A stretch of 50,144 bases of DNA from Planctomycetota bacterium (GTDB lineage Bacteria > Planctomycetota > Phycisphaerae > Phycisphaerales > SM1A02), in contig CABYSN010000003.1 of NCBI GenBank assembly GCA_902521645.1, positions 1-50,144 of the forward strand, read 5' to 3'. Positions 12,546 to 22,070 of this stretch are shown here, piece after piece. The notes beneath the pieces are model-generated. The model was not told the DNA's origin and did no database searches. It saw only the letters and a list, made by a program, of their open reading frames with translations. The translations under genes and the position numbers were made by a program. The first letter of the stretch is position 1; each line of letters opens with the position of its first letter.

Positions 12546-13367
12546 ATGGACTCAGCATCAACGAATTCCCTCTGGCCCCTCGAAGGCATCAATCCGATTG
12601 ATCGGACTCTTCTCAAGGCTCAGGTCGATGCATCGCATCCGGTCAAGAATTTCATGATCGAGAACTTTCTCGAGACGTCTTTCGCGGACCAGGTGCACGA
12701 GTGCTTTCCCTCGTTCGATGAGGCCAAGTCGCTCGGCAAGCAGACCGCGGCCACCGTCAACGAGCAGAACAAGTATCAAGTCATGGATTCAAGTTGTTTC
12801 GCGCCACCGCTGCTGAAGCTTCATGAAATGCTCCAGTCTGACTATTTCTGCAATCTGCTCTCCGATGTCTTCGACATTCCGAACATCATGTCCGATCCGG
12901 AACTGATCGGAGGCGGCATTCATCAGACGGGGCCGCGTGGTCACCTCGACGTCCACGTCGACTTCAACTACGTCAAGGATCGAAAGCTGTTTCGAAGGAT
13001 GAACATTCTCATCTACTTCAACAAGGATTGGCGCGACGACTGGGGCGGGAACATCGAGCTCTGGGACCAGGAGGTCAGGAATTGCGTCCATTCATTCACG
13101 CCGATCTTCAACCGCTGCGTAGTCTTCGAGACCAATGAGATCAGCTACCACGGTGTCACCGCGGTGCGTTGTCCGGAATCGACGTCACGCCGATCGTTCG
13201 CGGGCTATTACTACACCAAGGATGAGCCGGATTGGTGGGACGGCAAGGCACACTCGACGATCTTCAAGGCACGTCCGGATGAAAAGCTCAAGGGCAGCGT
13301 GCTCATGCCTGCCGAGAAGATCTTCCGTCTCTTCCGTCGTGCGAGACGGAAGATCTTCGGCTCGTGA
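12546..13367 (+). CDS. 2-oxoglutarate/Fe(II)-dependent oxygenase (prolyl-4-hydroxylase-type)
   Basis: A 273-aa cytoplasmic protein. The double-stranded beta-helix core shows the iron facial triad: H137-V-D139 in HLDVHVDFNY and H202 in EISYHG, with an Arg (RRSF, about 214-215) placed to bind 2-oxoglutarate. NILIYFNKDW and WGGNIELWD are typical of the P4H-like superfamily found in polysaccharide or glycopeptide biosynthesis loci. The substrate is unknown. The C-terminal tail is very basic (FRLFRRARRKIF), perhaps for membrane or nucleic-acid contact, and is encoded inside a 16-bp inverted repeat. It lies 274 bp after the DprE-like pair on the same strand; a shared envelope-glycan role is possible but unproven. 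Confidence 0.82.
   Translation: MDSASTNSLWPLEGINPIDRTLLKAQVDASHPVKNFMIENFLETSFADQVHECFPSFDEAKSLGKQTAATVNEQNKYQVMDSSCFAPPLLKLHEMLQSDYFCNLLSDVFDIPNIMSDPELIGGGIHQTGPRGHLDVHVDFNYVKDRKLFRRMNILIYFNKDWRDDWGGNIELWDQEVRNCVHSFTPIFNRCVVFETNEISYHGVTAVRCPESTSRRSFAGYYYTKDEPDWWDGKAHSTIFKARPDEKLKGSVLMPAEKIFRLFRRARRKIFGS
13316..13358. repeat. perfect 16-bp inverted repeat at the 3' end of the oxygenase gene
   Basis: Arms 13316-13331 (GAAGATCTTCCGTCTC) and 13343-13358 (GAGACGGAAGATCTTC) are exact reverse complements around an 11-nt spacer. The outer part GAAGATCTTC is itself palindromic. The repeat lies within codons of the basic C-terminal tail and ends 9 bp before the stop codon's last base. No T tract follows. 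Confidence 0.85.
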
Positions 13368-13523: not shown

Positions 13524-13754
13524 ATGCGGGACCACGATTACTCTGCCACCGGAATGGATGAGCCGTCAAAGCCTCTGACCAAGTTCGAGGACGGCGCACT
13601 CTTGTTTCTGCTCCTCATTGCCCTTGGCGTGATCGGCATCGCGGTCTATCTCTTTATTCCAAAGGTTCAGCATTTCACCTACGACCCCGGGACCGGCAAG
13701 GCCTACAGGCAGTGGACCTACGGCACGGTCGACGTTGTCGAACCTGATTCGTGA
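13524..13754 (+). CDS. small single-pass membrane protein
   Basis: A 76-aa protein of unknown function. Residues about 28-52 form one transmembrane helix (ALLFLLLIALGVIGIAVYLFI). The N terminus is polar and the C terminus (about 25 residues, rich in Tyr and Thr) would lie outside. GGAG followed by 7 nt precedes the ATG at 13524; an earlier in-frame ATG at 13479 lacks such a site. It follows the oxygenase by 156 bp. No family recognised. Confidence 0.6.
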   Translation: MRDHDYSATGMDEPSKPLTKFEDGALLFLLLIALGVIGIAVYLFIPKVQHFTYDPGTGKAYRQWTYGTVDVVEPDS

Positions 13755-13767
13755 TCATGACGTGACG

Positions 13768-13787
13768 CACACCACCAGACAGCCTCA
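13768..13787 (+). repeat. 20-bp match to sequence downstream of hppD
   Basis: This segment (CACACCACCAGACAGCCTCA) equals 20804-20823 with one mismatch. In the hppD locus the match lies 44 bp beyond the hppD stop codon; here it lies about 680 bp from the hppD fragment at 14467. It suggests that the duplicated hppD region once extended to here and was later interrupted. Confidence 0.5.
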
Positions 13788-13822
13788 CTTGATCCTGTTA
13801 AAGGTTAGTTATCACAAGGGGC

Positions 13823-14101
13823 TCACTTGAATTCGATGTCTCTTCCCCTTTGATCAACAATCCGCACGACAATGGGCTCTTTATTGCCAAGAAGGTCTTT
13901 TCCTTGTGTGATTCCTACTTCGCCCTTTAATTTGTCAAAGGACGGCCAGCTTTCGATTGCCATCGACTCCGCTCGCTTCGCTTCGACTGCTCCACCCCAG
14001 CTAATCGCCGCCACAAGGAAGCACCCCAGGATCAACGTCGCTCTCTTCTGTTTCGCGAGTGATTTCTCTACCAGTTCAAGACGGTCTTCAGTACTGATCA
14101 T
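13823..14101 (-). CDS. small membrane-anchored protein with short coiled coil
   Basis: A 92-aa protein, no family recognised. Residues 1-20 are charged and heptad-like (STEDRLELVEKSLAKQKR), residues 21-40 form one hydrophobic segment (ATLILGCFLVAAISWGGAVEA) that could be a signal anchor, and the rest is a small soluble domain (VVRIVDQRGRDIEF). A strong ribosome site, AAGGAG, lies 7 nt before the ATG, so it is probably a genuine gene despite its size. Its base composition is lower in GC than its neighbours. It lies in the segment that appears inserted beside the hppD fragment, which hints at acquisition. Confidence 0.65.
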   Translation of the reverse strand: MISTEDRLELVEKSLAKQKRATLILGCFLVAAISWGGAVEAKRAESMAIESWPSFDKLKGEVGITQGKDLLGNKEPIVVRIVDQRGRDIEFK

Positions 14102-14326
14102 GTCGATCTCCTTGGTTAGGTGTTCTTAGACGACACCACGGTAGTCGACACACTGAGCTTTGGGTCGCCCGAGGCTTTCCCTCGACAGTTCTCCTAGGGA
14201 CGCCGTCATGGTCGACAACTCAACCACTCACTAACTCTCAGGTTCAGTCCCTTCGGGGGGAGCTAGCGTGGCTTCGGCCCGCGACGCTTTGGGCCTACCA
14301 CTTTTCGAGCCACCCCTCGGAACGGA
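14102..14326. other. hairpin-rich segment between two small minus-strand ORFs
   Basis: No ORF is convincing here, but the minus strand folds repeatedly. GTGGCT pairs with AGCCAC around an inner GGCCC/GGGCC stem (about 14262-14312). TCCC...GGGA, CGAGG/CCTCG and a long-range GGGAC/GTCCC pair follow. This clustering is unusual for a spacer in this window. It could be a small structured RNA, a recombination site or a long untranslated region; none matches a class I can name. Confidence 0.4.
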
Positions 14327-14431
14327 TTACTTGGGAGGGTAACGGTCGTAGTACCACACCACGGCGCCTGCCCCGAGGATGAAACAGCAGAACCCGAAAA
14401 TGATTATGTCGATGAACTCGAGGTCTTCCAT
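14327..14431 (-). CDS. putative 34-aa single-TM peptide
   Basis: A short ORF encoding MEDLEFIDIIIFG... with one transmembrane helix (about residues 7-27) and a basic/aromatic tail (YYDRYPPK). The composition is that of a genuine small membrane peptide, but no clear ribosome site is seen. It lies between the hairpin-rich segment and the hppD fragment. A longer frame upstream of its ATG runs through the hppD remnant and is not credible as protein. Confidence 0.4.
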   Translation of the reverse strand: MEDLEFIDIIIFGFCCFILGAGAVVWYYDRYPPK

Positions 14432-14466
14432 GGGAGCAGTCCTACTCGAAGGGGCCACTGCCTTCG

Positions 14467-14690
<224 letters not shown>

Positions 14691-14780
14691 TCATGTTCAT
14701 TGTTCAATTTGATTCCAACTAGTCGACATGCCTACAACTGTTCATCGTGATCATTTTTGCCAGTATCGATTGAAAGAATC

Positions 14781-16538
14781 ATGCACAGACATCGAACGAA
14801 CGTATCAAACGTCCTGATCATCGGATCCGGCGGAGCAGGGCTCAGTGCGGCCATCTCCGCGCACGAAGCAGGTGCCGAAGTAGTCATTCTTGGAAAGCGT
14901 CTCCGCAAAGACGCGCACACCGCCCTCGCTGCAGGCGGGATCAACGCCGCGCTTGGAACCGTCGACCCGGAGGACACCTGGGAACAGCACTTCGTCGACA
15001 CCTATGAGGAGGGCTATCATCTCGCCGACCCGCGAACTGTCGAGCTTCTCGTTCAGGAGGCACCGGCGCGCATCCGTGAACTGGAGGAGTGGGGCACGCC
15101 ATTCGCCCGCACCAAGGACGGCAAGCTCGATCAGCGTTTCTTCGGTGCGCATACCTACCGTCGAACCTGTTACGCGGGCGACTACACCGGGCGCGCGATC
15201 CTCAACACCCTGACCGAGCGCGTCGAACAGCTCGACATCCCGATTCTCGACATGCAGTACGTCTCCCGTCTGCTGGTTGACACCACCGGGGGGCAGCGTG
15301 AATGCTTCGGTGCGATGGCCTTTGACGTCGTCTCCGGACAGCGAACCGCTTTTCTCGCCGACTCCGTGGTCCTCGCCGCCGGTGGACACACCAGGATCTG
15401 GCGCATCAGCTCGTCCCGGCGCGACGAAAATACCGGTGATTCCATGAGACTCGCTCTGCAGGCCGGTTGCCAGCTTTCGGACATGGAGCTCGTCCAATTC
15501 CATCCCACCGGGATGGTCTTCCCGGAGGAGCTTGCGGGCACTCTCGTGACCGAGGCGGTCAGGGGCGAAGGTGGGCATCTTCGGAACACCGACGGTGAAC
15601 GGTACATGGCCCGTTACGACCCGGATCGGATGGAGCTCTCAACCCGCGACCGGGTCGCGCTCGCGAACTACACCGAGATACTCGAGGGCCGCGGCACCGA
15701 GAACAACGGCGTCTATCTCGACATCAGTCATCGCGACAAGGAGTACATCCTCGAGAAGCTGCCGCGCATGTACCGCCAGTTCATGGAATCCCAGATGCTC
15801 GACATCTCGAAGCACCCGATGGAGGTCGCTCCCACGGCGCACTACAGCATGGGCGGCGTCATGGTCGAGCCCGACACGCATGCGACCCGTGTGCGCGGTC
15901 TTTTCGCCGCCGGCGAGTGCACCTCCGGGGTTCATGGCGCGAACCGACTTGGTGGGAATTCGCTCGCGGAGATTCTCGTCTTCGGTCGACGCGCCGGCGA
16001 GAGTGCGGCGATTCATTCCAGCGAGTTGGATCTCCAGCGCCGAAGCCGTGTGGTCATCAACGAGGCGGACGATGAACTGGATGAGCTCACCAGCAATGGT
16101 GAGGAGCTGGCGCGCCCCATGCAGCGTGCCGTACGAAACATCATGTGGCAGCATTGCGGTGTGGTTCGCAACGGGCCTTCGATCGACGAAGGATTGGTCA
16201 AGATCGCCGAGCTGCGCGAGGCGGCCAAGGACGTGGACGTCAGGCCCAGCGCGGAAGGCTTCGGGGATCTGACCCTGGCTCTCGATCTGATGGGCGCGAT
16301 CGACAGCGCCGAAGCGACGCTGCGCGGGGCCCGGGAACGTCGCGAGAGTCGTGGTTCCCATCAGCGACTGGATTTCAAATCAACCGACCCGGATCAGCGC
16401 GTGAACTACGTGATCGAGCTCGACAGCCAGGGTGGCCAGCAGATCAGTCGTCAGTCCGTGGAGGCGGTGCCTGATTATCTCGCGGAACGTTTCGAGAGTT
16501 TCGTCGAGCCAGAGATCGAAGGGCGACTGCTCGAGTAG
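14781..16538 (+). CDS. FAD-dependent succinate dehydrogenase/fumarate reductase-family flavoprotein (SdhA/FrdA or NadB type)
   Basis: A 585-aa flavoprotein. The N terminus has the FAD dinucleotide motif GSGGAGLSAA (about 16-25). The family signatures are LAAGGINAALG, FHPTGM, the catalytic-region TEAVRGEGGHLRN, HYSMGGVMVEPDTHATRVRGLFAAGE and HGANRLGGNSLAE, with the C-terminal helical domain motif RRESRGSHQR. HGANRLGGNSLAE is closer to SdhA/FrdA, but no iron-sulfur or membrane subunit gene is adjacent, so an L-aspartate oxidase (NadB) or stand-alone reductase role is possible. TTG at 14757 is an in-frame alternative start; ATG 14781 is preferred, though it has no clear ribosome site. The AT-rich 100 bp upstream probably holds the promoter. 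Confidence 0.85.
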   Translation: MHRHRTNVSNVLIIGSGGAGLSAAISAHEAGAEVVILGKRLRKDAHTALAAGGINAALGTVDPEDTWEQHFVDTYEEGYHLADPRTVELLVQEAPARIRELEEWGTPFARTKDGKLDQRFFGAHTYRRTCYAGDYTGRAILNTLTERVEQLDIPILDMQYVSRLLVDTTGGQRECFGAMAFDVVSGQRTAFLADSVVLAAGGHTRIWRISSSRRDENTGDSMRLALQAGCQLSDMELVQFHPTGMVFPEELAGTLVTEAVRGEGGHLRNTDGERYMARYDPDRMELSTRDRVALANYTEILEGRGTENNGVYLDISHRDKEYILEKLPRMYRQFMESQMLDISKHPMEVAPTAHYSMGGVMVEPDTHATRVRGLFAAGECTSGVHGANRLGGNSLAEILVFGRRAGESAAIHSSELDLQRRSRVVINEADDELDELTSNGEELARPMQRAVRNIMWQHCGVVRNGPSIDEGLVKIAELREAAKDVDVRPSAEGFGDLTLALDLMGAIDSAEATLRGARERRESRGSHQRLDFKSTDPDQRVNYVIELDSQGGQQISRQSVEAVPDYLAERFESFVEPEIEGRLLE

Positions 16539-16577
16539 TTCGGTGCCTCCTGCGACCATCTGGCATGTCGTCCCGGC

Positions 16578-16583
16578 TAGTAT
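16578..16583 (+). promoter_or_regulatory. -10-like TAGTAT 7 nt before an ATG
   Basis: TAGTAT ends 7 nt before the ATG at 16591, and no Shine-Dalgarno site fits in between. This is the spacing of leaderless promoters. No good -35 hexamer was found. Confidence 0.35.
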
Positions 16584-16590
16584 CCTCGGC

Positions 16591-16833
16591 ATGGAAAACG
16601 ACATGATCACCAGCACTCGTCCCACCTCGCACGTGCCAGTGCTCATTCTGGGCTGGCTCGCCCTTCTCCTCATACCGGGTCTGGGGTTCTTCATCGGCTG
16701 GTACTGCTTTCACGTCGCCGACGATCGCCTCAGCACGTCGGTCACCGTCACCTCGATGAAGGTGGCCCGTTTTCTCTCGTATTTCCTCGTCCTGGCGATA
16801 ATGACTTGGATCACCATCGATCTCCTCACCTGA
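16591..16833 (+). CDS. small two-TM membrane protein
   Basis: An 80-aa protein with two transmembrane helices: residues about 15-38 (VLILGWLALLLIPGLGFFIGW) and about 58-78 (ARFLSYFLVLAIMTWITIDLL). No family recognised. It begins 52 bp after the flavoprotein gene but appears to have its own -10-like element 7 nt before the ATG and no ribosome site, suggesting a leaderless transcript. Longer in-frame starts upstream run through the flavoprotein gene in another frame and are rejected. Confidence 0.6.
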   Translation: MENDMITSTRPTSHVPVLILGWLALLLIPGLGFFIGWYCFHVADDRLSTSVTVTSMKVARFLSYFLVLAIMTWITIDLLT

Positions 16834-16916
16834 CGGCTGGACGTGCCTAGTGAGCGTTCGGTCACTGCGTCGGGTATCGCAGGCTCCCCAGCAGTGATCT
16901 TCATCAGAATCCCTCA

Positions 16917-17783
16917 TCAGGTTGATTCGAACCTGCTGGTGATCCAGAGGACACCGAATCCGATCACTCCGGACAGCAGGAACAACAGGGGGGCGCCGTA
17001 CCCCGGGGCATCGATCGCCAGCCGAATCAGAATCGTGGCCAGGACGAATCCCGTGTTGCGGGCCAGACTCCCGAATTCGTTGGTGAAACGGTAGGAAATC
17101 AGCAGGATCGCGATGTCCGCGATGATCAGCAGGGTGAAGAAGCCGGCGAAGAAGATGCCGGCATTCAGTTCGGCGGGGTTCCCGTCGACAACCTCCGCCA
17201 GCCAGCCGGCCAGCGCACTCGTCGCCATCACCACGAAACAGATGAACAGCAGGATGGCGATGATCCGTTTGATGCGCACGTAGTTCGCGACCGGGCCGGT
17301 TGGTTCCACTCCGTCCGCATACCTGTGCTCGTAGCGAGTGAACCCGAGTGTGACCAGCAGCAGCACGAGAAAGGTGAGGCACTTGGCGACAAGCAGCAGG
17401 TACCAGCCGGTTTCGATGGACTGTTCCAGTACATCGGTTCCCGCCACGTAGGCGAGGGCGTCACGCACCACGATCAGAGCGATCACTTCGAACTGCTTGG
17501 TCATGGCAGCCGAAAACGACTGGGGAATCGCCTGGATCAACTGGTAGACCTCGTAGACCAGCAGGATAGAGAATGGCGTGTAGAGCGCGAGCAGGGGCGA
17601 TTTGAGCAGGGACTCGATGCCCGGGGGGGCGAGGATCAGGTCACCCTGGACCAGCGCCCACATCAGCAGGTGCAACGCGAACCCGACGAGCGCGGCGTAC
17701 AGCGCGATGTGTTTGAAGGCGGCATCGGTTCGCGGCCCCATGAGTGCGTCGTACCAGCGCGTCGAAATGTCCTGTCGTTCCAT
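16917..17783 (-). CDS. polytopic membrane protein of unknown function
   Basis: A 288-aa integral membrane protein with about seven hydrophobic helices, for example ALYAALVGFALHLLMWALV, YLLLVAKCLTFLVLLLVTLG, IIAILLFICFVVMATSALAG and GAPLLFLLSGVIGFGVLWI. No signature motif or catalytic residue stands out. An in-frame ATG at 17834 would add a 17-residue extension; ATG 17783 begins MERQDISTRWYDALMG, with the first helix shortly after. The gene lies downstream of the 7-TM gene at 17946 on the same strand, separated by 162 bp and a hairpin. Confidence 0.7.
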   Translation of the reverse strand: MERQDISTRWYDALMGPRTDAAFKHIALYAALVGFALHLLMWALVQGDLILAPPGIESLLKSPLLALYTPFSILLVYEVYQLIQAIPQSFSAAMTKQFEVIALIVVRDALAYVAGTDVLEQSIETGWYLLLVAKCLTFLVLLLVTLGFTRYEHRYADGVEPTGPVANYVRIKRIIAILLFICFVVMATSALAGWLAEVVDGNPAELNAGIFFAGFFTLLIIADIAILLISYRFTNEFGSLARNTGFVLATILIRLAIDAPGYGAPLLFLLSGVIGFGVLWITSRFEST

Positions 17784-17850
17784 TGTGATCACCGGAGATA
17801 CTAGGCATGCTCCAGGCCTCAAGTCGATGGCCATGACCTTGCACCACCAT

Positions 17851-17869
17851 CCCTCGGGAACCCCGAGGG
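17851..17869 (-). terminator. possible hairpin terminator downstream of the 7-TM gene
   Basis: A perfect 8-bp stem (CCCTCGGG/CCCGAGGG) with a 3-nt loop, 77 bp past the stop of the minus-strand gene at 17946. No T tract follows, so its role as terminator is uncertain. Confidence 0.4.
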
Positions 17870-17945
17870 GGTCCGTGGAAAAACACGTTTCGACCGTGGC
17901 GTGTTCGGGGTCGGTCGGGGCATTCCATGGGATCTTTCCGGACGC

Positions 17946-18680
17946 TCAGCCGATCTGCCCCGTGGGTGCTTCCTGGTTCGAGGACGACCAGGATCCCGGA
18001 GCTCTGATGCACGCTGCGTATCCAGCCCAGATCAGGATCAGTCCAACCAGTTCGGCGACGTAGAGGGCCTCGACCGTGCCTGCCTTTGCCATCGAGCCTC
18101 CGATGCCCGGGAGAATTCCACCCACCGCGATCAGGGCGGTCCCGAGTGTTCTCGATCGTTGACCGGGCACCCCCCAGAAGCGGTGACAGCTCCAGACGGC
18201 CCCTCCCACGAGGAACAGTGCCGCATAGGCGTTGATGAAGGGCGTCAACACCCTGATCCACTGCCAGCCGATCACCGCTCCAGTGGGGCGATGGGCTTCG
18301 AGCTGGCTCGGATCCATCGGGCCGATCGCCACGGCGACGGCCGCCACCAGCACTGGAATCGCGCTGAGTACGGTCAGTCGATTGGCCGTCCGCCTCGTGA
18401 GAACGAGGTAGACGCTGCCCGTCGCGAGCGGCCATGCACCAAGAATCGCGCCCGCCAGATACCACCATCGGTTGAGTGTGATCGAGTTGCCTTCGAGCGT
18501 GATGATCGATTCAATGATCGTTCCCGACCCGTAGCAGACGACGCCGAGCGCCCACCATGTCAGGTAGGGAGGCCATCCGCGAAGTCGACATCGTGACACC
18601 AGTGCCGCCACGAATCCAACCGCGATCAGGCTGGTCGCGATCGGAAGATAATGAACCGCGCTGGTCTGGGCTTCGATCAT
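17946..18680 (-). CDS. seven-TM membrane protein coupled to M1-like peptidase gene
   Basis: A 244-aa integral membrane protein with about seven predicted helices (HYLPIATSLIAVGFVAALV, YLTWWALGVVCYGSGTII, YLAGAILGAWPLATGSVYLVL, LTVLSAIPVLVAAVAVAIG and others). The C terminus is polar. No conserved motif identifies a family. Its ATG overlaps the stop of the upstream metallopeptidase gene (TCAT on the plus strand at 18677-18680), so the two are translationally coupled and probably act together. A role as membrane partner or sensor is inference. Confidence 0.7.
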   Translation of the reverse strand: MIEAQTSAVHYLPIATSLIAVGFVAALVSRCRLRGWPPYLTWWALGVVCYGSGTIIESIITLEGNSITLNRWWYLAGAILGAWPLATGSVYLVLTRRTANRLTVLSAIPVLVAAVAVAIGPMDPSQLEAHRPTGAVIGWQWIRVLTPFINAYAALFLVGGAVWSCHRFWGVPGQRSRTLGTALIAVGGILPGIGGSMAKAGTVEALYVAELVGLILIWAGYAACIRAPGSWSSSNQEAPTGQIG

Positions 18681-20605
18681 CGGGTGAGGTTCCTTCCGTT
18701 CGATTTCTGCGACGGGGTGTTCGTGGTTCGCATCCAGGCATCCGGCTCGAAGACCGAACGATCACTCGTTGCTTCGCCGTCCCACACCACCGTCGTGTCC
18801 TTGCGGTAGTACCAGGCCAGCCGAAGGCGACGCCATCCAATCTTGCCGTTGCTGTGAAAGACCGTGATGTAACGACCTGGCAGGTCCGGATGATGCATGG
18901 TGTGCAGCACGGATTGAGAGTCGCCGGTCCAGATGGACGACCCGATCGAGAATCCATCGTCATCGACGGCGATCGGGTTCGCGGCCCGTGCGATCACTTC
19001 CGCATGACTGTCGATGGCTTCGCGTCCGATGAGCAGCATGTTCGCTCCGGGTTCGAGTCGTGAGGTCCATCCGAATTCTGCGGGGGATGCCATGCCGTCG
19101 CCGTTACCCACCACGGTCGTACCGTCCGCGAGTGTTCCCGCGATTGTCGGACTCGTGAATGCCGTGTCGATGAGTCGGTAGTGTCGACATTCCGGATCCA
19201 CCAGAACCATGCTGCCGTCGTCACTTCGAATCCGCTCGAGGCGCTGCGGTGGCGACGCCGTCATCTCCGGCGTGGTTCGAGGTCGCGTGTGCTTTCGGAC
19301 CCATCGATCAAAGAATGGGTCGAGCCATCCCTCCGGGTGATCCGGTCGAGTCGCCTCGGCGGCATCCTGGATCACTCCCCAGTCGATTCGTTCGCCCATG
19401 TGCGTCGTCGCCAGCGAACGCATCATGTCCCAGATCCTGCTTTCCTCGAATCGAGTGGGGGAGATGTGATCGTCCAGCACGTCCTGCAACATCATGATGA
19501 CGAACGACCCCTTCTGGTATCCGACGAATCGATTCACCCCGAGGCCTCCGCGGCCGAACTCACCCAGCGGGCCGTCATCCAGGTCGGGATCCAGCGAGAC
19601 CTGGTTGATGATGCCTCGTCGATACGTGCGTGCGGCGCCGGGACCTTCCTCCAGCCACCTGCGGCCGTAGTTGGTGCAGAAGCTGGTCAGTGCCTCGCAC
19701 CAGTTGCCGTCGGTCGGATCGACGTAGACCCCGTTGCCCCACCAGGCATGCACCAGTTCGTGATCGAGGTAGCCGGGTTTCAGGGATCGAGGCGCCATGG
19801 CGACGACCCGTGGACCGAGAAGTGTGAATCCCGGGAAGGCGAAACCCGATGAGAAGAAGTTCTCGACGATCGTGAACCGTTCGAAGGGATAGGGTCCGAG
19901 CAGGCGGCAGTAGGTCTTGAGATACCGTTCAGCGGCGTTCAGATAGTCACCGCTCTTGTCGAGATTCGAAGCCGCGACTTGAAGGACCACCGTGACCGGA
20001 CCATGGACTGTGTCGACATTTCGCGTGGTCCGTTGGTGGCGGTTTCCAGCCAGACTCATTCCGGAGATCGGTCTTGGGGTCTGCCAGTTCCAGACTGGTT
20101 CGAGAGGATCTTGTTCGGCCGACGGGTTGCCCGAGGCAATCAGCGACCAGCCTTCGAATGGTTCGATTTCAAGGGACATCATCCTGAGTTGGGGTACGCC
20201 CCGGTCATCGAGAGGCTGCGGGTGCCACGAACTGCCTGATGAGAGAAACACGCCATCCTCCGCCGCATGGGCGCGAACCGAGAGATTGTGGATCGCCCCC
20301 TCGACCTCACCGGCCTCGACATCCTCGACGTGCCTGCCCCGCCAGCGCATCACGACGGAGGCGTTCTTCGGAAGTTCCTCGAGCAGACCCGGTCGCGAGG
20401 GTGTCACCGTGAGTCCATCGACCATCACTTCCTCGATCGTGGCCTCGGGGTGCAGGCTGTAGCGGAGGTCCCCACCCCCGGCGAGGAGCATGTGGGAGGA
20501 TCCCGTGATGCGATTGTCGATCGGATCGACCTTGACGACCAGGTCCTGACGGTCGACCACCGCGGGGTCCACCAGGCAGCAAGTGGCCAGGATGGTGATG
20601 AGCAT
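18677..20605 (-). CDS. M1-like (gluzincin) metallopeptidase family protein
   Basis: A 642-aa protein with a short hydrophobic leader (residues 1-15). The zinc site is H282-E283-L-V-H286, with E304 as third ligand (HELVH...WCEAL), one residue closer than the usual M1 spacing. The helix YQKGSFVIMMLQDVL follows, as in M1 enzymes. The exopeptidase GxMEN motif expected about 30 residues before HExxH is absent; the equivalent place reads SSGFAFPGF. This suggests a non-canonical specificity. A C-terminal extension of about 190 residues is beta-rich. AGGAG lies about 10 nt before the ATG. The stop overlaps the start of the 7-TM gene. It probably acts in the periplasm. Confidence 0.8.
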   Translation of the reverse strand: MLITILATCCLVDPAVVDRQDLVVKVDPIDNRITGSSHMLLAGGGDLRYSLHPEATIEEVMVDGLTVTPSRPGLLEELPKNASVVMRWRGRHVEDVEAGEVEGAIHNLSVRAHAAEDGVFLSSGSSWHPQPLDDRGVPQLRMMSLEIEPFEGWSLIASGNPSAEQDPLEPVWNWQTPRPISGMSLAGNRHQRTTRNVDTVHGPVTVVLQVAASNLDKSGDYLNAAERYLKTYCRLLGPYPFERFTIVENFFSSGFAFPGFTLLGPRVVAMAPRSLKPGYLDHELVHAWWGNGVYVDPTDGNWCEALTSFCTNYGRRWLEEGPGAARTYRRGIINQVSLDPDLDDGPLGEFGRGGLGVNRFVGYQKGSFVIMMLQDVLDDHISPTRFEESRIWDMMRSLATTHMGERIDWGVIQDAAEATRPDHPEGWLDPFFDRWVRKHTRPRTTPEMTASPPQRLERIRSDDGSMVLVDPECRHYRLIDTAFTSPTIAGTLADGTTVVGNGDGMASPAEFGWTSRLEPGANMLLIGREAIDSHAEVIARAANPIAVDDDGFSIGSSIWTGDSQSVLHTMHHPDLPGRYITVFHSNGKIGWRRLRLAWYYRKDTTVVWDGEATSDRSVFEPDAWMRTTNTPSQKSNGRNLTR

Positions 20606-20867
20606 TCGTGTGCACTCCTGTGGTGTTCAGCATCCTAGGCGCTCTCTGATCTCGCAGGTGCTCCCGAATCCCGATCCCGGCTCGTCGCCGGCCTCCATGC
20701 GATGGTTGAATCCTTGATCGATCCAGCACGCGTCCACGCCAGCCGTGAACACCTGAACGCACCCTCAGCCGACCGATCCGTGGCAACCTCAACGGGTCCA
20801 TGCCACACCACCAGCCAGCCTCAGACTGTCCGTGTCCTCTTCATGAAACTCAATAGAGTTCAACCGC

Positions 20868-22070
20868 TTACAGGTTGCCGCGACGTTCCTGTTCGAGTTC
20901 GAGGGCTTCGAAGAGGGCCTTGAAGTTCCCCTTGCCGAAGCTCTGACTTCCCTGGCGGGAGATGATCTCGAAGAACAGGGTGGGGCGGTCCTGCAACGGC
21001 TTGGTGAAGAGCTGCAGCAGGTAGCCTTCGTCATCGGCGTCGACGAGGATGCCGAGGTTCTTGATCGCCTCGTGGTCCTCCTTCACCGGGTTGTGTCCGT
21101 GCTCGGTGAGCATGGTGTTCACTCGGTCCCAGACCTTCTCGTAGTAGGTGTCCGGAAGCTGGAGGAAGTCGACGCCGCGACGACGCAGTTCCGCGACCGA
21201 GGCGAGTTCGTCGTCGGTGCGCAACGCGAGGTGCTGGATGCCGGGGGTGTTCGAGTGCCACTCGAGGTACTCGAGGATCTGGCTCTTCTTCTTGCCATCG
21301 GCGGGTTCGTTGATCGGCATCTTGATGAGGTTGTTGCCGGAGGCCATCACCTTCGACATCAGCGCCGAGTGTTCGGTGGAGATGTCGGCGTCGTCGAAGT
21401 GCTTGAACATCTTGAACTCGAGGACGTTCTCGTACCAGTCGACCCAGTGGTTCATCTTGCCCTCTTCGACGTTGCCCACGCAGTGGTCGACGTACCTGAG
21501 GCCGCAGGGGTTGTCCTTGTTGTACTGGTTCAGGACGAAATCCATTCTCTTCCAGCCGGGGAGGAAGAGGCCGCCGTGCTTGAGCTCGCGCAGCGAATAG
21601 GCGCCGGTGCGGCTCACGAAGGTGTGGACCGCGCGCCCGTAGGTGCGGATCGATGCTGTGCTGACCGTGCCGTTCTCGTCGGAGAAGGTCTCCGGTTTGT
21701 GGGCCGAGACCGCGCCGTTCTTGATGGCGCGCTCGTACGCCTTCTCCGCATCGTGCACGGTGTAGGCGATGTCCTTGATGCCGTCGCCGAACTTCTGCAG
21801 CTCGGAGTTGGCCGGATGATCGGGTTGCAGTGGGGTCTCGAGGATGAAGCGGATGTTGCCCTGCTCGAGGAAGTACCGCGCCATCTGGCGGTCGCCGGTG
21901 GTGAGGTCGCTGAACTGGGTCACCTGGAAGCCGAAGGTCATCGCGTAGAAGAACGCGGCCTGCTTGGCGTTGCCCACGCAGAAACGGACGTGGTCGACGT
22001 CGATCAGTCGAAGCGGGTCGGCATTGTTGGCGGCCTGGGTGGGGTCGTTCGAGGTGGCGATTGAGCTCAT
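20868..22070 (-). CDS. hppD: 4-hydroxyphenylpyruvate dioxygenase
   Basis: A 400-aa enzyme that converts 4-hydroxyphenylpyruvate to homogentisate in tyrosine breakdown. Two VOC (glyoxalase-like) domains are visible: residues about 22-160 (DVDHVRFCVGNAKQAAFFY) and about 190-375. The iron ligands are H196 (YVDHCVGN), H280 (GIQHLALRT) and E368 (FFEIISRQG), with the usual C-terminal helix [13 protein letters not shown]. The length is close to that of bacterial and plant homologues. A ribosome site AGGAAGGA lies just before the ATG. No homogentisate dioxygenase gene lies nearby, so the pathway partners are elsewhere. A decayed partial copy of its 3' part lies at 14467-14667. Confidence 0.96.
   Translation of the reverse strand: MSSIATSNDPTQAANNADPLRLIDVDHVRFCVGNAKQAAFFYAMTFGFQVTQFSDLTTGDRQMARYFLEQGNIRFILETPLQPDHPANSELQKFGDGIKDIAYTVHDAEKAYERAIKNGAVSAHKPETFSDENGTVSTASIRTYGRAVHTFVSRTGAYSLRELKHGGLFLPGWKRMDFVLNQYNKDNPCGLRYVDHCVGNVEEGKMNHWVDWYENVLEFKMFKHFDDADISTEHSALMSKVMASGNNLIKMPINEPADGKKKSQILEYLEWHSNTPGIQHLALRTDDELASVAELRRRGVDFLQLPDTYYEKVWDRVNTMLTEHGHNPVKEDHEAIKNLGILVDADDEGYLLQLFTKPLQDRPTLFFEIISRQGSQSFGKGNFKALFEALELEQERRGNL

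Follow-up and report, generated by a model that had tools for sequence, protein, structure and literature searches.

The window discussed here, i.e., the whole stretch of 50,144 nucleotides that was analysed from a Planctomycetota bacterium (contig CABYSN010000003.1), carries an intact hppD gene as well as a copy of the end of that gene, and next to this copy stands a segment of 679 bp in the place of the native flank of hppD. A first-pass annotation had regarded this segment as a foreign-looking insertion, of a mobile or cassette-like kind, beside a duplicated gene end. The question that the locus raises is where such DNA came from and how it came to be placed at the end of a metabolic gene. 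The source genome is 54% complete, in a fragmented assembly of 108 contigs, and the genomes with which it was compared are draft assemblies. The features of the locus are collected in Table 1.

Table 1. Features at the hppD locus and around the acquired segment (window coordinates)
Feature	Position	Strand	Remarks
TM-ORF1, 76 aa, small membrane protein	13524..13754	+	79-87% aa in G001, G003, G076; across spacer from hppD/tail copy in G003, G076
20-bp remnant of hppD 3′ spacer	13768..13787	.	match to 20804-20823
Acquired block, 679 bp, replacing 42 bp of hppD 3′ spacer	13788..14466	.	spacer present here in G003:C40, G076:C56; single in own genome
ORF92, 92 aa: coiled-coil-like at the N-terminus, with one hydrophobic segment; C-terminal half variable	13823..14101	-	ortholog in G004; strong Shine-Dalgarno
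Non-coding stretch between the two ORFs	14102..14326	.	no exceptional fold; Rfam nothing credible
ORF34, 34 aa, one hydrophobic segment	14327..14431	-	weak PHROG membrane-protein match only
hppD tail copy: last 50 codons and stop codon	14467..14621	-	98% to 20866-21020
Second part of hppD copy, past 186-bp internal deletion	14627..14667	-	95% to 21207-21247
Block from sdhA-like gene to M1-peptidase-like gene, between tail copy and real hppD	14683..20695	.	ends joined in other order in G002
Spacer S beyond hppD stop; 20824-20865 absent beside the fragment	20716..20866	.	comparison with fragment
Intact hppD, 4-hydroxyphenylpyruvate dioxygenase-like, 400 aa	20868..22070	-	Pfam glyoxalase and HPPD N-terminal models

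The Segment and Its Boundaries

The 20-mer just beyond hppD recurs beside the fragment with one mismatch, as had been noticed in the annotation. These are the sole two sites in the window when up to three mismatches are allowed, and the same threshold gave 0 matches in 100 shuffles; the spacer of which the 20-mer is part has few copies, and the match is not a common one in the genome. From the 20-mer to the end point of the hppD tail copy, the distance is 42 bp at the real locus versus 679 bp at the fragment, in agreement with the 42 and ~680 bp first given. The fragment starts 2 nt past the hppD stop codon, and the segment replaces the 42 bp of spacer rather than being set inside an intact one.

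The segment is indeed low in GC (53.8% versus 60.1% for the window, a value equally low in only 1.9% of 679-bp windows). The claim that a hairpin-rich stretch accounts for this did not hold: the low portion is the ORF92 gene (about 50%), whereas the stretch in question, at 14110-14330, has 54-58% GC, shows no exceptional fold as DNA (z +0.38) and, as minus-strand RNA, only a weak one (z -1.96). Since these z-scores are weak and Rfam gave no credible match on the segment, a structured RNA was rejected. Near the segment ends neither terminal inverted repeats nor a target duplication of 6 bp or more was found, no recombinase lies within the segment or close to it, and no second copy occurs in its own genome as far as that is complete. 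A transposon, MITE or insertion sequence was rejected for want of terminal repeats and target duplication and for the single copy, and the notion of a defined mobile element or cassette is not supported. Two other repeats were seen in the window, namely a near-perfect long inverted repeat at 13316-13358, within the 3′ end of a 2OG-oxygenase gene (an opposite-strand self match), and a direct repeat at 645-799, which is imperfect (75%), about 90 bp long and spaced at 66 bp.

The Genes Carried by the Segment

Both small minus-strand ORFs are present as first described, and the strong ribosome site is an AAGGAG six bases before the ATG of ORF92. A search for copies with other flanks yielded a sole counterpart, the ORF92 ortholog of G004 (C31:39211-39489, equivalent to L010:15012-15290; 75% at the amino acid level), which sits in unrelated surroundings among small ORFs near a tRNA-Val gene. 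The similarity between the window and G004 is confined to 13818-14113, from just upstream of the start codon of ORF92 to just past its stop, i.e., the two have this gene in common and no larger mobile unit. Between them, codons 1-45 of ORF92 show 7 synonymous and 0 nonsynonymous changes; beyond codon 45, dS is about 1.4 and dN 0.45 (dN/dS about 0.3). The combination of an unchanged N-terminal part and a strongly diverged remainder implies that the gene is both selected and mosaic. Judged from its sequence, ORF92 is a real gene for a conserved, predicted small membrane protein, and its near-identical 5′ half and diverged 3′ half look as if C-terminal halves had been exchanged between species. 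ORF92 had no match in Pfam, no confident relative elsewhere in 181 family genomes and no relative in viral contigs, and ORF34 had none in the fetched loci. On the G004 contig, small membrane-protein ORFs stand in a row beyond the tRNA-Val gene (L010:13702-19922), and among them is a second relative of ORF92, 27% identical, at L010:19052-19318.

The Locus without the Segment

The state without the segment was found in two relatives. In G003 (C40), which belongs to the same genus, TM-ORF1 and the 20-mer adjoin a 43-bp spacer, which leads straight into an hppD tail, and in G076 (C56), of another genus, the same spacer and then the same TM-ORF1 come after an intact hppD. It follows from these arrangements that hppD ancestrally had as its 3′ flank the spacer adjoining TM-ORF1, and that 42 bp of this spacer gave way to the segment in the window. 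A further arrangement is seen in G002 (C54), where the M1, sdhA and hppD genes are in a different order and a gene with a nuclease-related domain adjoins hppD. The segment, far from being conserved in place in relatives, was absent from the other genomes searched, save for the ORF92 gene in G004. Being absent from G003 and G076, and with its main ORF in unrelated surroundings in G004, it is an acquired block, which bears out the annotation as far as a foreign insertion beside a duplicated gene end is concerned.

Tail Stubs of hppD in Other Genomes

The last 50 residues of hppD were used as a query against 101 genomes, with 50 residues from the middle of the protein serving as a control on the same set. 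Extra partial tails were found in six of the genomes (G000, G001, G003, G010, G076 and G034), which belong to three genera; the count leaves out additional tails in G073, G116, G141 and G191, where they lie at the ends of contigs. A seventh, weak stub occurs in a fourth genus (G007), 1 kb beyond hppD with one hydrolase gene between. The control query revealed no partial extra copies, only full second genes in three genomes. A single gene fills the interval between hppD and stub in G001, G007, G034 and G076 (TM-ORF1 in the last), the placement of hppD beside the insert in G001 having been deduced because the real hppD is split between two contigs there. Beyond the insert, the stub and the native spacer are retained in G001 and G010.

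The stubs are not all independent of one another. Those of G001, G003, G010 and G076 have in common a +2 frameshift variant, GGCAAGCGnCCCCC for GGCAAGGGCAAC, as well as parts of the flanks M and S, and they thus descend from one older event; a fresh tail duplication in each of these four genomes was rejected because of the common variant. The exact variant was found on two contigs only among 84,980 species genomes. One stub junction is common to G001, G003 and G076 by descent, and between genera the 5′ ends of the stubs vary (about 69, 85, 130 and 145 bp before the stop). The stub in the window, which is without the common variant, was copied more recently from its own hppD and diverges from it by 2-3%. 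A widespread genomic repeat was rejected as well, the spacer and flank blocks being present at few copies per genome. Spacer S is followed at three loci (L030:4943-5161, L032:7928-8139 and L063:16548-16747) by a block A, in which TGCTGACAG is repeated after 3-4 bases, and block M (L031:8042-8205) contains a repeat similar to that of block A. In the hppD-linked contig of G001 (C86, PKCS01000020.1), TM-ORF1 adjoins a gene for a PD-Lambda-1 type anti-phage protein (L030:1015-2427) with a T5orf172 domain (PADLOC E 1.8e-88).

Synonymous Divergence around hppD

Synonymous divergence was computed by the Nei-Gojobori method with a script of our own. When the window is compared with G002, dS is 0.22 for hppD, 0.29 for M1 and 0.13 for the neighbour of M1, versus 0.62-1.06 for the genes 5′ of hppD. 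Within hppD itself it drops from 0.34-0.43 in codons 1-200 to 0.05-0.19 in codons 201-400, and the same comparison with G076 gives 0.70-0.75 and 0.29-0.39, respectively; most other genera show no such gradient within the gene. TM-ORF1 has a dS of 0.22-0.27 to G003 and G076, versus 0.5-1.6 for other genes; to G003 it is 0.22, versus 0.64-1.6 for the other full genes. These values point to repeated homologous exchange that reached into the 3′ end of hppD and its flank, and codon bias may contribute to the low dS of hppD.

Proposed Anchored Uptake at the 3′ End of hppD

The explanation that we favor, at about an even chance of being right, is that hppD has, at its 3′ end and in the flank downstream of it, a hotspot of DNA acquisition from related bacteria, by a homology-anchored uptake that leaves tail stubs behind. 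An incoming fragment with an hppD end and its own downstream gene would pair with the resident hppD on the homologous side, and its far end would join by illegitimate recombination, either within the resident hppD tail, giving rise to a stub, or in the spacer. A functional hppD would thereby be retained, one or a few accessory genes would be gained and the hppD stub would be left as a scar. In the window, ORF92 and ORF34 would have entered first, at the hppD stop codon, displacing the 42 bp of spacer, when that copy of hppD was probably still whole (the junction lies 2 nt past the stop). In a more recent step, dated by a divergence of about 2.5%, the sdhA-M1 block and an intact hppD would have been placed alongside, and the older hppD end would have become the present stub. 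We infer the uptake mechanism and this order of events, the latter from the position of the junction beyond the stop codon and from the 2-3% divergence of the stub.

This explanation is supported by the stubs, by their restriction to the tail of the gene, by the relatives that lack the segment, by the single genes between hppD and stub, by the low dS in the 3′ half of hppD and its flank, and by a genus that showed no serine recombinase and tyrosine recombinases only in Xer-type numbers. One-sided homology with a resident remnant beyond the insert, by which homology-facilitated illegitimate recombination is recognized, is what the locus displays in G001 and G010, and uptake of this kind accounts for an intact hppD, the added genes and a resident stub that ends at the native stop and spacer. 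It counts against it that neither junction microhomology nor a donor sequence has been demonstrated, and the single older event behind four of the stubs means that the independent events are fewer than the stubs and uncertain in number.

Other Explanations

The main rivals are site-specific integration and tandem duplication followed by deletion. Under the former, an element brings a replacement end for hppD and the old end becomes the stub, as with prophage e14 at icd, and the inserts seen today would be elements that have worn out or lack an integrase. The length of the stubs (about 70-150 bp, to the stop codon) and their position are similar to those at icd, a duplicated 3′ end of the target gene does lie at the far side of the insert, a block of flank M, hppD tail variant and spacer recurs in G001, G003 and G076, and a motif TGCTGACAG-N-TGCTGACAG flanks the tail on both sides in G001. 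However, the search of the genus turned up no serine recombinase, and its tyrosine recombinases are Xer-like only, one or two per genome, and presumably XerC/XerD from their number and length. Neither the window nor its relatives encode an integrase in the interval from tail copy to hppD, the inserts have no gene in common, and the tail copy in the window lacks the common variant, all of which makes such integration unlikely. The hppD tail occurs in no virus contig either, and a phage origin was rejected, the viral contigs containing no hppD tail, tail-variant pattern or ORF92.

A similarly low likelihood attaches to a history with no import of DNA, in which the hppD end and its neighbour were duplicated in tandem and each genome then underwent deletions and local rearrangement. 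The G001 array hppD-S-gene-M-tail-S would fit a tandem repeat that has decayed, the tail copy in the window is 98% identical to its own hppD, and the G034 stub (C2, L066:6740-6847) is joined to a 40-bp piece like the start of a neighbouring acetyltransferase gene, possibly a scar of duplication and deletion. Such a history would, however, leave unexplained how new genes came to stand between the copies, why species and genera differ so little at synonymous sites here, and why the middle of hppD yielded no partial copies.

A more speculative idea, to which we attach little probability, is that the block of M, frameshifted hppD tail, spacer S and motif A, which occurs in two genera, is a dedicated recombination site. 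The 3′ end of hppD would then dock single genes, some of them for defence (PD-Lambda-1 stands beside the block in G001), in a cassette system free of integron integrase and driven in trans by the host Xer proteins or another enzyme. An assembly artefact, with contigs misjoined at the repeated hppD tail, might be suspected in a contig from so fragmented an assembly, and several hppD-tail contigs in relatives do stop at the tail (these were not counted as evidence); it is very improbable, given that the tail copies differ at several sites, that an internal deletion and a unique right border set the fragment apart, and that related arrangements recur in the independent assemblies of G001, G003 and G076. 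A chromosomal integron cassette, which a small single-ORF block with variable neighbours could bring to mind, is largely refuted by the lack, in the available part of the genome, of a third tyrosine recombinase (IntI) beyond the Xer types, by the lack of an attC-like fold, and by a GTTRRRY-like motif at the spacer that is not conserved between species.

Comparison with Known Systems

Prophage e14 of E. coli replaces the 3′ end of icd by site-specific integration and leaves a 163-bp icd′ stub (PMC6379469). In both cases inserted DNA separates an intact protein-coding gene from a stub of its 3′ end further downstream, but at hppD there is no integrase or phage gene, the inserts consist of one or a few small genes and the stub ends vary between genera. 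In the T6SS orphan immunity arrays of Vibrio cholerae, for which homology-facilitated illegitimate recombination has been proposed, there are strings of orphaned 3′ ends (PMC5361080). There, too, a conserved gene anchors one side of successive additions and the older 3′ ends are shifted downstream; the anchor here, in contrast, is a metabolic gene that stays intact, the cargo is not made up of effector-immunity pairs, and the recombination is deduced from sequence comparison. With integron gene cassettes the locus has in common a variable site with small single-gene blocks, but not an integrase, attC or common boundaries. Marine tycheposons and flexible genomic islands are comparable in that reduced marine genomes carry small cargo islands. 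Unlike what is seen at hppD, their integration takes place at tRNA genes and uses a tyrosine recombinase.

Implications

Uptake anchored at hppD would mean that accessory genes land again and again at one end of a core metabolic gene, in a planctomycete family that has been little studied and seemingly lacks ordinary integrases. The hppD stubs would then be readable scars, and a simple comparison of strains could test how fast, in which direction and by what mechanism genes are gained.
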